Source: a virus
Strand: one strand, 5' to 3'
Length of the DNA stretch: 23,397 nt
Virus record (IMG/VR): IMGVR_UViG_3300025120_000571
Coordinates: 1 to 23,397 of that record
The notes below the pieces were generated by a model. That model was not told the DNA's origin. It did not search any database and saw only the letters and a list, made by a program, of their open reading frames with translations. The position numbers and the translations under genes were made by a program. Shown here piece by piece: positions 5,969 to 14,109 of this stretch (the first letter of the stretch is position 1; each line of letters starts with the position of its first letter).

Positions 5969-6576
5969 TAGATGTCCTCTCTAACCGTTATCGATATTGT
6001 GCTTGTCCCGTCTGTGTTGGTTTTGAATACTGTTTTGTCTGATGTCAAATAAACTTTGAACGGAACATTGTTGTAAACCACTGTTGTGCTGTTAGTAATA
6101 GCAGTAGTTAATGGTGGTGAAATGTGCAAGAAGTCCTCTGTGCTTGAGTCTTGATTGATGTCCTGAACCAGCATATACACCTTGTCATGATTTGAAAATT
6201 TTATGTAGTCTCCAGCCTTTAATGAACCTGATCCACTCTGTGAACTCACACGGCTTACACCAGCGGCAAAAGTTGCTGTGATTGTTGGTATGCCACTAGC
6301 ATTGGTGCTGGCAGTTGATCCATATATGGGTGGAACAATAGTAAAATCTGAAAATGATCCTTGTTGTTTGACCAAAAATGAATACAAAATACCCAACTCT
6401 TCTCTGTTGAGTGGTTTACTTTGTAGTTGAATCATCCAATGTTGTCCACCTACTGCTTTCCTTTGTGTTTTACTACTAAGGCTTTCGCTAATTCTTGTGG
6501 TGTTTTGACTTGATATTTCTGCTGACGCGAAAAAATTAGTTGATAGTGCGTCGGATGTTGTTGTTGTGCTACTCAT
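5968..6576 (-). CDS. Distal tail / minor tail protein
   Basis: 202 residues immediately after the tape measure gene, where distal tail proteins normally lie. After a Ser/Thr-rich N terminus comes the recognisable segment GGQHWMIQLQSKPLNREELG, followed by a helix and GSFSDFTIVPP (about 43-85). That pattern of aromatic strands, a helix with L-x-R-x-E and an F-T-(I/L)-V-P-P strand is common to distal tail proteins of siphophages with this gene order. The rest is a beta domain with a KAGDYIKFSNHDKVYMLV hairpin. It starts by TAATG overlap with the tape measure, with AAAGGAG upstream. Confidence 0.65.
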   Translation of the reverse strand: MSSTTTTSDALSTNFFASAEISSQNTTRISESLSSKTQRKAVGGQHWMIQLQSKPLNREELGILYSFLVKQQGSFSDFTIVPPIYGSTASTNASGIPTITATFAAGVSRVSSQSGSGSLKAGDYIKFSNHDKVYMLVQDINQDSSTEDFLHISPPLTTAITNSTTVVYNNVPFKVYLTSDKTVFKTNTDGTSTISITVREDI

Positions 6577-8582
6577 TATACTAGACTCCTTTGACCGTTT
6601 TCATTTAGTGCTTCATTGATTACACCAACAATAGTATCTCTTCTCTGCACCAGTAATTCGTCAAAACTTTGTGCATCTGTGGCTGTGATATTGAAATTTA
6701 CATTCACTTCTGTCTGTCCTCCTGACTGACTGTTTGGTGCTATCATGCCTGTTGAACTGGGTCTAAATGTTTCAGGTCCATTTTCTCCCACTGTGTATGT
6801 TCTGCCTGCCATAACCTGTCCACCAAATTTTCTGCCTGGGAACTGTGTGGATTTGATAGCATTAACTTGTGCCACACCAGCCGCCAATTGTGCGGCCGCC
6901 ATTATAAAACTAAACGGTGGTGGATATGCCTTCAATGCGTTTGTGACACCAACAGCAGTGTTGACTATTGCCATTGCTATTTGCGCCTTCTTGTTGAGTT
7001 CAAATGCTTTCTTGTTAAAAGTTGCGGCGTTTGACAGCATCGATCCTAAACCAGCCGCGGCTACCTCAACTTTTTGTTGAGTAGTCATTTTTTCAAAGTC
7101 AAGTTCTTCAATTTTGCCTTGTTTGATATTTTCAATTGCTGATTTGAAATCTTGTCGACGTTTGGTTTCGTTTCTTGTTTCAATTCTGTCTCTTATATTG
7201 GCATGTTTTATGGCTATTTCTGTCCTTGCCTTCTCATACTCTTCGAAAGTGATGGCTCCCTCTTTCAATGCCGCGTCCATGTTCTTTATCTGTTCTCGTT
7301 CTTTTCGATCATTTGCCTCTATTTCAGATTCATTGAGTAACAACACCTGCTGGAATTGTTTCTTCATCGTCGCTAACAGTCTCTTCTGTGCATCGGTTTG
7401 TGTATTTGTGGCCTCTGCACTTTTAAATTTGCCTATCGTGTTCTCAGCAGTCGCCGCCGTGTTGGCCGCAATGGTCCCTGTTGCTTTTGTGTATGCATCG
7501 TTGTTGGTGAACAGTGCTTTGCTGTTGGAATTAACAGATTCTGTTGCGTCGGCGTTGGCGTCACTGAATAGACCTAATTTGTCGGCAAGAATGCCAAGAC
7601 CTATCGCTATAACTGTGGCCGCCGCTATGTAAGGGTTGGCCCGTGCCGCCGCAGTTAGTAATTTTGTTGCTGTTGTGACTGCGGCTATACCAGTGGCAAG
7701 TCTTCCAAAACTTGCTATCACCGAACCGATTGCCAATGCGGCTAGAACTTTTGTCAGCAGTTCAAAATTGTTTCTTACAAACAATAACGCATCACCCAAT
7801 GTTTTTCCTAAGGCGTGTGCTAAATCTTTGTTCTCTTTGGTTAAGGAAATAATGTCTTTGGTTATAGTCGTGAGTGCATCGGTCAGTCCACCCTCACCAA
7901 TCTCGTTGGCGGCGATGGCGAATTCATCTTGCAAGTTGGATATCGCACCTGTAAGTGTCTGCGATTGTCGTTCAATGGCTCCAGCAAATTTAACTCTACC
8001 TATCTCATTTAGGAAATCAATAATTTCTTTACCATCGTTTTTAATGTTAAAGGCTGTGCCCCTAAAATTGACAGTTAGTCTGTCTCCTTCTGTTTTAACC
8101 TTGATACCCAACTGTTTGAGCATCTCAAATTCACCAGTGGTGGCATTGAATACCGCTTGGGACACGTCGTCTATACGCCTTCCCATACCCGCGGCAATGT
8201 TACCAATATTGGTCATAAACTCGGCGGTTGGATCTAAACCAGCATTCTTGAATGTGATAAACGCATTGGTTACCTCACCCAATTGGAATGTGGTCCCAGC
8301 TGTAAATTCTTTGATTAAGTCAAAAGATTTTGCCGCTTTTATGGCATCACCTTCTATGGTTATTAGTGTCTGTCTTAGATCCTGGAATTGTCTGATGGAA
8401 CTGACAACGTTGCCAATTAGTCTCGAGAAACCAATAGCGGCAAATGCCGTCGCGGCGATCTTGGCCGCTGAACCTAAGCCTATGGTAGCCTTGGTTGTTC
8501 TGCCTAGACTTTTTTCTAATTGTGCGATCCTTTTCTGGTTCGAAACAACTACGTCTACATCTATTCTGGCTTTATCCGCCAT
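6576..8582 (-). CDS. Tail tape measure protein
   Basis: 668 residues; by length the tail should be roughly 100 nm if the usual 0.15 nm per residue holds. It sets tail length and is ejected during infection. Features in order: N-terminal coiled coil (about 10-30, NQKRIAQLEKSLGRTTKA), an alpha-helical region with tape-measure phrases (TTGEFEMLKQLGIKV, about 148-162), two hydrophobic stretches (about 275-330, LLTKVLAALAIGSVIASFG and then IAAATVIAIGLGILADKLG), a charged coiled coil (about 405-490) and the common C-terminal signature GRTYTVGENGPETFRP. No lysozyme or peptidase domain is visible. AAAAGGAG precedes ATG 8582, just after the stop of the frameshifted chaperone extension. Confidence 0.9.
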   Translation of the reverse strand: MADKARIDVDVVVSNQKRIAQLEKSLGRTTKATIGLGSAAKIAATAFAAIGFSRLIGNVVSSIRQFQDLRQTLITIEGDAIKAAKSFDLIKEFTAGTTFQLGEVTNAFITFKNAGLDPTAEFMTNIGNIAAGMGRRIDDVSQAVFNATTGEFEMLKQLGIKVKTEGDRLTVNFRGTAFNIKNDGKEIIDFLNEIGRVKFAGAIERQSQTLTGAISNLQDEFAIAANEIGEGGLTDALTTITKDIISLTKENKDLAHALGKTLGDALLFVRNNFELLTKVLAALAIGSVIASFGRLATGIAAVTTATKLLTAAARANPYIAAATVIAIGLGILADKLGLFSDANADATESVNSNSKALFTNNDAYTKATGTIAANTAATAENTIGKFKSAEATNTQTDAQKRLLATMKKQFQQVLLLNESEIEANDRKEREQIKNMDAALKEGAITFEEYEKARTEIAIKHANIRDRIETRNETKRRQDFKSAIENIKQGKIEELDFEKMTTQQKVEVAAAGLGSMLSNAATFNKKAFELNKKAQIAMAIVNTAVGVTNALKAYPPPFSFIMAAAQLAAGVAQVNAIKSTQFPGRKFGGQVMAGRTYTVGENGPETFRPSSTGMIAPNSQSGGQTEVNVNFNITATDAQSFDELLVQRRDTIVGVINEALNENGQRSLV

Positions 8583-8585
8583 CTA

Positions 8586-9100
8586 CTAACTCCTTTTTTG
8601 TCTGATCGCACTGTGTCTTGCTTCAGCCTGTTCCACCTTGTAATAAGCGGCCCAGAGATCCATTTCCGCCGATGTCATTTCAAGCACTTCCGCCACGGAC
8701 TTTTTAAGTCTGTCAGCCAAAACAAGGAAGAACCTTAGATCACCGCCGGTTTTTATTCCTTTGCGAGTGTTTCCAAATCAACTCTTGCTTCAAAGTTGTT
8801 GATAGCACTTGCAACCTTTGTTATTACTGCAGGATCGGCTTCATGCATCAGTGAGGTCTTGTCTAGATCCACAAAGATTCTTTTACCGTCCTTGTCGAGT
8901 GCTTTGATTATCAAACTTTCAACAAGGGCTTCCACCGTCTTGCCTTTGGATTGTAATTCAACCACTCTTGCTTCGTCCTTGAATGGATAAGTTTTTCTGC
9001 AATAGATATCCATATCCCATTCAGGAACGTTTATTTTCATCATTTCACCACCGATCGCTGATCTGTAGTGATCTGTTATTTGCTTCATTGTTGAAGACAT
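8586..9100 (-). CDS. Tail assembly chaperone, long form made by programmed -1 frameshift (gpGT-like)
   Basis: The 170 bases between the short chaperone stop and the tape measure have no gene of their own, but in the -1 frame they encode 58 codons ending at TAG 8588-8586. The peptide contains ADRLKKSVAEVLEMTSAEM then DLWAAYYKVEQAEAR, matching the small helical T domain (DUF4035-like, with W-x-A-Y-Y and E residues). The shift must occur after the last -1 frame stop (TGA within GTT-GAT, about 8779) and before TAA 8755. The best slip point is GCA-AAG-GAA (8764-8756), where tRNA-Lys can re-pair from AAG to AAA. It is not a canonical heptamer. The product would be about 171 residues. Confidence 0.7.
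8753..9100 (-). CDS. Tail assembly chaperone, short form (gpG-like)
   Basis: 115 residues directly upstream of the tape measure, the fixed place for the lambda G/T type chaperone. Features of the family are visible: KINVPEWDMDIYCRKTYPF (about 22-40), then ALDKDGKRIFVDLDKTSL (about 67-84) and a helix around DPAVITKVASAINNFEARV. The frame ends at TAA 8755-8753. AAAGGAG precedes the ATG. The chaperone binds the tape measure and recruits tube subunits. A longer product arises if ribosomes slip back one base near the end (see the extended form). Confidence 0.8.
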   Translation of the reverse strand: MSSTMKQITDHYRSAIGGEMMKINVPEWDMDIYCRKTYPFKDEARVVELQSKGKTVEALVESLIIKALDKDGKRIFVDLDKTSLMHEADPAVITKVASAINNFEARVDLETLAKE

Positions 9101-9105
9101 ATTTT

Positions 9106-9396
9106 CTAACTCCTTTTGTTTAGAACTTCCCTAATGGCAGGTCGCGTTATACCCTTAGGTGATTGTTTTGAGTAGCCTTGGTTAAGACGTTCAATGTAAG
9201 GAGTTTTGTTGGTTACCCTAAATTCTCCTTTTCTGCCCGTCAACCTCCAATTTGATCTAGCACGACCAGATCTTTTTGGAGTGTGCTTTGCCAACTTCTG
9301 CAAAGCGTCCTTAGCCACTGAGGCGACCTCCTGATCTATATCACGTCTGAGACCAGCGATTGCCAATTGTGCATTTATTAACTTTATTTTTAACAA
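9106..9396 (-). CDS. HK97 gp10-like tail completion / neck protein
   Basis: 96 residues between the tube protein and the chaperone. The segment LAKHTPKRSGRARSNWR (about 35-51), followed by a strand and KTPYIERLNQGYSKQSPKG (about 64-82), is the signature of the HK97 gp10-like family, which closes the tail or links it to the head. The start is unusual: TTG at 9396 without a clear ribosome binding site; no ATG or GTG occurs in frame and an in-frame stop lies at 9417-9415. Translation may depend on ribosomes ending at the tube gene stop (9404-9402), six bases away. Confidence 0.75.
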   Translation of the reverse strand: MLKIKLINAQLAIAGLRRDIDQEVASVAKDALQKLAKHTPKRSGRARSNWRLTGRKGEFRVTNKTPYIERLNQGYSKQSPKGITRPAIREVLNKRS

Positions 9397-9401
9397 ATCT
9401 A

Positions 9402-9818
9402 TTACAAATCTGCTTTAGTTAATGCACCAGAACCTTGGAAAGAGACTGAAGCCTCTACCATACCGTCAAAGTTTGACGTTATAGAGTGACCTGTTACAAT
9501 TATCTCTCCAGATAGTTTAATACCAGTTGATACTCCTGATGGATATATTTCTACAGTAGCCGCACCTGCGCCAATACCTGCGAATAAGGCATTTGCCGCG
9601 TCGTCGTTATCTCTAAAAAATACGTCCATTGATCCAGAAAACTGGGCTAGACTAGGAAGATAAGTTCTTGATGTATCTCCCATTTTTGTTGTTTCAACTG
9701 TTGCTTGTTCTTGATCCACTGTGAATGATCTTACTTCCGCAACTGCTGTTGGCGTGCCTGAAACGTCATATTTAATAACTCCAGTTTCGCCTGTGTAAGT
9801 TGTAGTGTTTACCGCCAT
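9402..9818 (-). CDS. Major tail (tube) protein
   Basis: 138 residues, in the range of small siphophage tube proteins. It forms the stacked hexameric rings of the tail tube. Recognisable points: a beta-rich N-terminal strand set, VRSFTVDQEQATVETTKMGD (about 29-48), where the tube family has its conserved T-x-M-G segment, then YLPSLAQFSGSMDVFF (about 53-68), the G-x-(V/I/L)-(D/E) strand pattern, and a C-terminal GEIIVTGHSI strand. AAGGAG lies before ATG 9818, one base after the previous stop. Likely strongly expressed. Confidence 0.85.
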   Translation of the reverse strand: MAVNTTTYTGETGVIKYDVSGTPTAVAEVRSFTVDQEQATVETTKMGDTSRTYLPSLAQFSGSMDVFFRDNDDAANALFAGIGAGAATVEIYPSGVSTGIKLSGEIIVTGHSITSNFDGMVEASVSFQGSGALTKADL

Positions 9819-10963: not shown

Positions 10964-11464
10964 TTATTGGATATGTTCCAAGTGTGTTAATCTTAAATCT
11001 CTCTGCTTGCCATCATTACGCACAACAACAATTTCAATGTTTGGTTGTGCGTTCCAAATTTCAAGCAGTCGCGATTGTGAATTTGTATATTTCAATTTGG
11101 ATTTCCTTTTGTATTCATACACACTGTCGTTAGTGACACCCCAATCGCATCCAATGATGTATAATTTTTTATAACCCAAGTTTAAAGCACATCTCACAGC
11201 CATCATGCCTGAATTCTGTGGCTGACTGGACATTGAATACATCACCTGTTCAAATCCTGGTGATTGATTCCAACCATTCCTGGTCCAATATTTTACTTCT
11301 GGTTCTGTCTCTATGAATTGAATGGTGACTGGATCATACACGCACACATGGTCTACTTTTCTGTCTCTGCGGATATGATTGCATCCAAATTCTGTGTATT
11401 TTTTTTCAATGTCCAAATATGACTTTCTGCTAGGACCATTGAACCATATCACTGCTGTGTTCAT
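10964..11464 (-). CDS. Sialyltransferase/DUF115-like protein in the capsid region
   Basis: 166 residues. A G-P-S turn near the N terminus (FNGPSRKSY, 8-16), a middle strand VDHVCVYDP (37-45) and NSGMMAVRCALNLGYKK (84-100) followed by LYIIGCDWG (101-109) follow the layout of GT29/GT42-like sialyltransferases and DUF115 proteins: GPS loop, Asp after a strand, S-G-x-x-A helix, L-G-Y-K, then a strand to G-x-D. Such proteins bind CMP-sugar or similar nucleotides. It is shorter than typical enzymes and I cannot see the catalytic His motif clearly. It starts right behind the capsid terminator and has no ribosome binding site, so it may be an independently acquired accessory gene. Role might be virion or host-surface glycosylation. 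Confidence 0.55.
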   Translation of the reverse strand: MNTAVIWFNGPSRKSYLDIEKKYTEFGCNHIRRDRKVDHVCVYDPVTIQFIETEPEVKYWTRNGWNQSPGFEQVMYSMSSQPQNSGMMAVRCALNLGYKKLYIIGCDWGVTNDSVYEYKRKSKLKYTNSQSRLLEIWNAQPNIEIVVVRNDGKQRDLRLTHLEHIQ

Positions 11465-13510: not shown

Positions 13511-13666
13511 TTATTTTCTCTCATTGATCTTGTTGATCAGTTCAAATGCTACTTTGACTTTCTCTTCTAACACTTTGATACGATAGTGTGCCTGTGCCAA
13601 TGTCACTATCAACAGCACGAATGCTACAAAAATGGGCCACAGTGCTGTCAGTGTTTGTATGTCCAT
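13511..13666 (-). CDS. Small single-span membrane peptide with a coiled-coil tail (51 residues)
   Basis: Starts at the ATG that shares a base with the stop of the SpeD-like gene (TAATG, 13668-13664). A longer frame from 13723 lies inside that gene and is not needed. The peptide has a short N-terminal segment, one hydrophobic span (about 8-25, ALWPIFVAFVLLIVTLAQA) and an amphipathic helix with heptad-like leucines and valines (YRIKVLEEKVKVAFELINKI). It resembles small membrane proteins found in head or lysis modules. A holin or spanin role is possible but unproven; there is no endolysin nearby. Confidence 0.7.
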   Translation of the reverse strand: MDIQTLTALWPIFVAFVLLIVTLAQAHYRIKVLEEKVKVAFELINKINERK

Positions 13667-14109
13667 TAGTCGTATACCACCTCGTCTGTCCAGTTGGTGT
13701 TGTATTGTTTGTTGTCCCACCAACTTAATTCATTGTTGTCTAATGTTTTGAATCCATGCTCTCTGTCAATGTATTTGTAATCCACTTTCTCCAAATCAAA
13801 CTGTGCCAACCAATTGAATATGGTTTTTATTTTGAAATCTTTGCAACTGTAAACATCCAATTGAATAACTGATGGTTGTAACCAACTGTGAAATGTTATT
13901 GAACTGGTGTCTATAATTGCAACAGAACTGTATCCTTCATTACCATCAACATCACTCCATTTGGTGTGTGGTCCTGACAGTATGTTCATATCAATGTTTT
14001 TGATTAGGCTTTTCATTTCGTTGTCTAAACGTTCTCTGTCTTTGAATAAAGGTGGTGAGTTTACTTCAGCTCTCACTAACAGATGTTTATGCACTAGTCT
14101 TGGATTCAT
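13666..14109 (-). CDS. speD-like: S-adenosylmethionine decarboxylase-like protein (SpeD family, class 1B type)
   Basis: 147 residues. In known SpeD enzymes a Ser becomes the pyruvoyl cofactor after self-cleavage, and decarboxylated SAM feeds spermidine synthesis. Here the segment VAIIDTSSITFHSW followed by LDVYSCKDF aligns with the family's pyruvoyl-Ser, His and Cys region: S69, H74 and C89 have the same 5- and 15-residue spacing as Ser63, His68 and Cys83 of the Thermotoga enzyme. The N-terminal HKHLLV strand and helix also fit. Odd points: Thr68 replaces the usual Glu before the Ser, and the PE after the His-x-Trp is LQ, so substrate could differ. It lies in the head module, between portal and scaffold, with AAAGGAAA before ATG 14109. 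Confidence 0.85.
   Translation of the reverse strand: MNPRLVHKHLLVRAEVNSPPLFKDRERLDNEMKSLIKNIDMNILSGPHTKWSDVDGNEGYSSVAIIDTSSITFHSWLQPSVIQLDVYSCKDFKIKTIFNWLAQFDLEKVDYKYIDREHGFKTLDNNELSWWDNKQYNTNWTDEVVYD

Follow-up and report, generated by a model that had tools for sequence, protein, structure and literature searches.

Our analysis of a 23.4-kb uncultivated virus record (IMG/VR record IMGVR_UViG_3300025120_000571, positions 1 to 23,397; this whole stretch is referred to as the window) indicated that the long G-T form of a tail assembly chaperone of the lambda type very probably arises by a programmed −1 frameshift. The predicted slip site is not a textbook heptamer but matches, with A as X, a pattern proposed recently, X_XXG_GAA. 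Comparison with related viruses showed that the −1 coding frame is conserved, that the slip heptamer is invariant, that a Shine-Dalgarno (SD)-like element is enriched, that a stem covaries, and that textbook heptamers have been swapped in; the occurrence of slippage, its efficiency, and the movements of the tRNAs are what we infer from these sequences.

The window carries a siphovirus head-tail module on the minus strand, in which the tail tube gene is followed by a neck-type gene, G, T, and the tape measure gene. The major tail (tube) protein is encoded at 9402..9818 (phrog_1407, E value of 1.3e-13) and the tape measure protein of 668 amino acids at 6576..8582 (phrog_1716, E value of 5.8e-39). 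The neck-type gene (9106-9396) lies between the tail tube gene and the gene for the G-like tail assembly chaperone (8753..9100), whose 0-frame product of 115 amino acids matched the tail assembly chaperone family phrog_344 with an E value of 1.1e-4. A chaperone located between the tail tube and tape measure genes is what is expected of G/G-T genes. The capsid matches pointed toward pelagiphages and DSL-LC06; a DNA-level search of the phage collection with the window yielded no match, no relatives of the window were found among GTDB genomes, and an Rfam search returned no match. Elsewhere on the minus strand, we observed a gene for S-adenosylmethionine decarboxylase (polyamine synthesis) within the head gene module (13666-14109; PF02675, E value of 8e-14), a phage DNA N6/N4 methyltransferase gene (160-1278; PF01555, E value of 1.7e-34), and, between the capsid and head-completion genes, an open reading frame for a 166-amino-acid protein without a Pfam match (10964-11464), which looks like an inserted extra gene.

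The original prediction held that a −1 frameshift joins the G-like chaperone to a hidden T-like domain and placed the slip, in the absence of a textbook heptamer, at GCA-AAG-GAA within an overlap of about 8 codons. Its coordinates and overlap proved right: the open −1 frame runs from 8777 as far as the TAG at 8588-8586, just before the tape measure ATG at 8582, and overlaps the open 0 frame by 7 to 8 codons. No X_XXY_YYZ heptamer occurs in this overlap of the window, and the only point of good re-pairing is GCA_AAG_GAA_TAA at 8764-8753, which contains AAAGGAA at 8762-8756. The putative slip site, A_AAG_GAA (8756..8762, minus strand; −1 codons AAA GGA), conforms to the X_XXG_GAA pattern: within the overlap and in the 0-frame register, GGAA comes after XXX. 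It can also be read as a Z_ZZN tetramer with a strong 3′ stimulator, namely, A_AAG plus a covarying stem-loop.

Comparison with related IMG/VR contigs and five phage records provided 131 distinct junctions, 127 of which combined a recognized slip motif with a G of sufficient length (81 of the AAAGGAR type and 46 with textbook heptamers). A textbook X_XXZ_ZZN site was not used in any of the 81 junctions of the AAAGGAR clade, in which AAAGGA was followed by A in 73 and by G in 8. Two later scans added 10 new clade members, all with AAAGGAR, bringing the total to 91 distinct junctions; the single exception inside the clade was one lineage carrying a textbook heptamer. After thinning to 58 sequences, each of the six AAAGGA columns held 2.0 bits, and many columns a few bases upstream held 0.1 to 0.5. 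The codon preceding AAAGGAR was variable (GCA in 48, GTA in 19, ATA in 6, TCA in 6, and GAA and CAA in 1 each). The slip had also been predicted to occur next to a stop codon, as is the case in the window, where the 0-frame TAA (8753..8755) lies immediately 3′ of the slip site. This adjacency was found in 67 of the 81 junctions; in the other 14, the stop lies 6 codons downstream, and therefore a stop codon in the A site does not appear to be required.

The T-like domain occupies 8586..8759 on the minus strand (57 amino acids, beginning GIKTGGDLRFFLVLADRLKK, plus the TAG), and the predicted G-T product has 171 amino acids, in agreement with the fusion of about 171 residues originally envisaged. 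The comparison of this junction in related genomes, which had been suggested as a check, gave a clear result: the −1 frame was open and homologous in every clade member examined, that is, in the 81 distinct junctions and in the 10 further ones from the later scans, the T-like frame was likewise open in the junctions with textbook heptamers, and the aligned T frames shared the pattern EL.F...LADRLK..V.EVME.T.LELDLWA. In the AAAGGAR clade, 35 disjoint pairs of close relatives gave dN/dS ratios of 0.17 (T frame), 1.0 (0 frame), and 5.6 (+1 frame). The first 11 codons past the slip site by themselves had a T-frame ratio of 0.26, and the codons beyond had one of 0.14, with the 0 frame at about 1. 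Judged by these ratios, the −1 frame is evolving as protein, evidently under purifying selection from the first codons past the slip. Collectively, a frame that is open and homologous across the clade, its dN/dS ratio of 0.17, and the invariance of AAAGGA amid freely varying neighbors argue that the −1 frame is not a product of chance.

Profile searches tied both halves of the product to lambda. G proteins of 18 out of 24 relatives matched phrog_344 (best E value, 2e-7), a family that lambda G also touches, and phrog_337 was common to the T of the window (E value of 7e-4) and lambda T (E value of 4.7e-7). When the window's G and T were joined at the predicted slip point, residues 23-154 of the product matched positions 22-154 of 160 of phrog_16513, a tail assembly chaperone family, in one stretch with an E value of 1.5e-9, compared with 2.4e-3 for G and 0.05 for T alone. 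The T of the window by itself gave weak profile matches. T-domain profile homology, another proposed check, was thus found through phrog_337 and not through DUF4035, the family named for it: no tail-related Pfam family was matched by any of 12 T peptides at an E value of 0.1, and NCBIfam yielded nothing for T. On the basis of these matches, the window gene is most reasonably assigned as a member of the G/G-T tail assembly chaperone kind.

Two conserved elements, neither of which was part of the original prediction, flank the slip site. One is an SD-like element, which, by the criteria published in PMC4066793, was present upstream of the slip site in 39 of the 58 thinned junctions, mostly at −13 to −8, compared with 21% at in-frame control positions inside G (binomial P of 6e-14, a value that ignores kinship among the sequences). 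It was likewise present in 22 of 34 relatives with canonical heptamers. The corresponding position in the window (8770..8776, minus strand) holds a weakened form, TTGGAAA, which has only GGA and falls short of the strict SD criterion; its nearest relatives carry TTGGAGA or GTGGAGG. In the AAAGGAR junctions, the element lies 1.5 nt (95% interval, 0.9 to 2.2) further upstream than in the canonical relatives, an offset halfway between the predictions of tetramer and heptamer slippage.

The other element is a predicted stem-loop downstream of the slip site. Sixty-nucleotide segments starting at +13 and +30 folded better than their dinucleotide shuffles (mean z of −2.4), and the effect was gone from +60. 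In an unbiased helix scan, the top rank was taken by a 9-bp stem pairing +13..+21 with +88..+96. Across the 58 sequences, this outer stem was paired in 91.2% of cells, compared with 27 to 47% when it was slid, and double-change cells numbered 92 versus 31 in shuffles. Three of its pairs link wobble positions to wobble positions, and at one of them each of the six standard pair types occurs. Of the 9 outer pairs, 8 form in the window (8749-8741 with 8674-8666), where the whole predicted three-tier element of 84 nt (8666..8749, minus strand) folds with −27.8 kcal/mol (z of −2.0). The middle and inner stems were supported within two subclades, and their register changes between subclades. Single-structure RNAalifold on all 58 sequences found nothing over most subsegments, which we attribute to the register shifts of the middle stem between subclades. 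The spacer between the slip heptamer and the stem is 6 nt (8750..8755), as it is in the sister clade with A_AAA_AAC, where a homologous 10-bp stem begins 6 nt past the heptamer and is 98% paired.

Textbook heptamers occupy the equivalent place in relatives outside the clade. A_AAA_AAC was found in the DSL-LC06 clade and in pelagiphages, and G_GGA_AAC was the heptamer of L057-L059 and Dinoroseobacter phage R4C. The tree built from the fused proteins placed all AAAGGAR rows in one clade with a support of 99/98, and a lineage with A_AAA_AAG (L034, L045, and L050) was nested inside it, which implies an exchange between AAAGGAR and a textbook heptamer at a single position. The AAAGGAR version was present in no cultured phage of the collection; the five records matched by G all carry textbook heptamers. 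In three records, the T domain is unannotated despite a textbook heptamer at the G stop, namely, OR003941 (L155 3316-3525), MN698248 (L156 2289-2454), and MK882925 (L159 2349-2504). In four distant relatives (L063, L065, L236, and L238), the +1 frame at the chaperone stop region encodes a T-like domain (..DW.F.F.LAK.L..T...L...), and AAAAGC occurs close to the G stop or immediately ahead of it. The sequences suggest either a +1 shift, with tRNA-Lys on AAA_A, or a −2 shift, and the direction of the shift would then differ within one chaperone family.

We propose that most ribosomes would end at the TAA and yield G (115 amino acids) and that a minority would slip back one base at A_AAG_GAA and continue through T to give the G-T product of 171 amino acids. 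The signal would consist of three parts, the SD-like element about 8 to 13 nt upstream, A_AAG_GAR, and, after the 6-nt spacer, the 84-nt stem-loop, which should stall the ribosome. Lambda G-T binds the tape measure protein and recruits the tail tube protein (PMC5009743); by analogy, G-T should couple these two proteins here.

A programmed −1 frameshift is, as far as sequence comparison can tell, the only account that fits all of the observations. Points that weigh against it are the weak SD-like element of the window, the intermediate SD spacing, the register changes of the middle and inner stems, and the weak profile matches of T by itself. An error of sequencing or assembly, or a decayed gene, could have split a single reading frame, and a short homopolymer (TAAAAA) does adjoin the junction; nevertheless, many metagenomes supplied the 91 distinct junctions that show the same arrangement, which isolated phages with textbook heptamers share, so that this explanation is refuted by the comparison and retains practically no probability. 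We also reject transcriptional slippage as extremely improbable: it would likewise yield a G-T product, yet no result favors it, the runs at the slip site comprise only three A and two G residues, and the spacing of the SD-like element and the 3′ stem suits a ribosomal event. Hardly more credible is independent translation of T, initiated at a start codon of its own for which AAAGGA would be the Shine-Dalgarno sequence, and we reject this as well. Pairing of AAAGGAR with the anti-SD would be good (about −5 kcal/mol), and many relatives have ATG or TTG codons in their T frame. However, no start codon is conserved in this frame, the commonest position being filled in 43 of 58 sequences, so that the independent start that would have spoken against the original prediction did not materialize. 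In addition, the T frame has no start codon at SD distance from AAAGGA, none occurs in the window from the slip site to a TTG at codon 15, selection on the T frame sets in directly past the slip, and the sister clades carry frameshift heptamers at the same spot.

Which tRNAs move is a closer question. We favor tandem slippage on the heptamer A_AAG_GAR as the probable movement: tRNA-Lys would leave AAG for AAA, and tRNA-Glu would leave GAR for GGA, where a G-U pair would form at the second position. Alternatively, tRNA-Lys alone may slip on the A_AAG tetramer in the A site, with an NNA codon in the P site and no part played by GAR, a reading that we consider possible but hold with less confidence. 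A_AAG is the best tetramer in Escherichia coli, with up to 5.6% frameshifting in the presence of a strong 3′ stimulator (PMC4066793), and IS1222 uses it as G_CGA_AAG (PMC5009743); a strong stem-loop is present here, and the displacement of the SD-like element relative to the heptamer relatives amounts to part of the 3 nt that tetramer slippage predicts. Against this, GAR is invariant in 91 of 91 junctions even though the added T-frame glycine is lysine in the canonical relatives, although coding could partly hold GAR, since two coding frames overlap there. Moreover, A_AAG_GAR keeps the exact register of A_AAA_AAC to the stop and the stem, and the same second codon, GAA moving to GGA, has been proposed for GGGGGAA and CCCGGAA, where no lysine codon is involved. 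The heptamer is therefore the reading that we prefer, and the earlier argument that tRNA-Glu re-pairs too poorly on GGA, so that only the P-site tRNA would slip, is probably wrong, given the invariance of GAR and the same move in G_GGG_GAA of phage D29 (PMC10885494).

The heptamer reading finds its closest counterpart in actinophages, for whose tail chaperones GGGGGAA and CCCGGAA (named "fivetwo" and "threetwotwo" by PRFect) have been proposed as slip sites, with GAA re-pairing on GGA via G-U (PMC10885494); we read GGGGGAA directly in the D29 chaperone sequence for comparison. AAAGGAA fits threetwotwo, with the first codon moving from XXG to XXX and the second from GAA to GGA. In contrast to the actinophage sites, X is A (tRNA-Lys), GAG also occurs, the phage lineage is another one, marine and with 41% GC, and conserved stimulators are shown here. 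In the literature searched, mostly open access, we did not encounter AAAGGAA described as a slip site. The tetramer sites of the IS1222 type share a strong 3′ stimulator and an A_AAG that follows a variable codon with A in its third position, but the next codon is invariably GAR in our clade and the product is a tail chaperone, not a transposase. With the lambda G/GT system (G_GGA_AAG), the window has in common the order of tail tube, chaperone, T, and tape measure, the −1 direction, and both phrog_344 and phrog_337; it differs in its A_AAG_GAR site, its much shorter T, and the flanking SD-like element and stem-loop. DSL-LC06 and the pelagiphages HTVC202P and HTVC026P (A_AAA_AAC) have homologous G and T, and the DSL-LC06 clade shares the SD position, the 6-nt spacer, and the homologous outer stem; their differences are the textbook heptamer and a T left unannotated in the GenBank records. 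Whether X_XXG_GAR constitutes a distinct slippery class, in which tRNA-Glu would move from GAR to GGA through a middle G-U pair and which would have arisen separately in actinophages and in this marine clade, being swapped with textbook heptamers while both stimulators stay, is to our mind an evenly balanced proposition.

Since slip-site catalogues and gene finders seek X_XXY_YYZ, a T domain of this kind is missed, and T is unannotated even in isolated relatives with a textbook heptamer. More than 80 related phages, most of them uncultivated, have retained an AAAGGAR slip site with its two putative stimulators. The clade represents a natural experiment, in which the heptamer has switched among A_AAA_AAC, A_AAG_GAR, and A_AAA_AAG within an otherwise constant three-part signal, and it allows a test of whether tRNA slippage extends to codons whose middle position must form a G-U pair.
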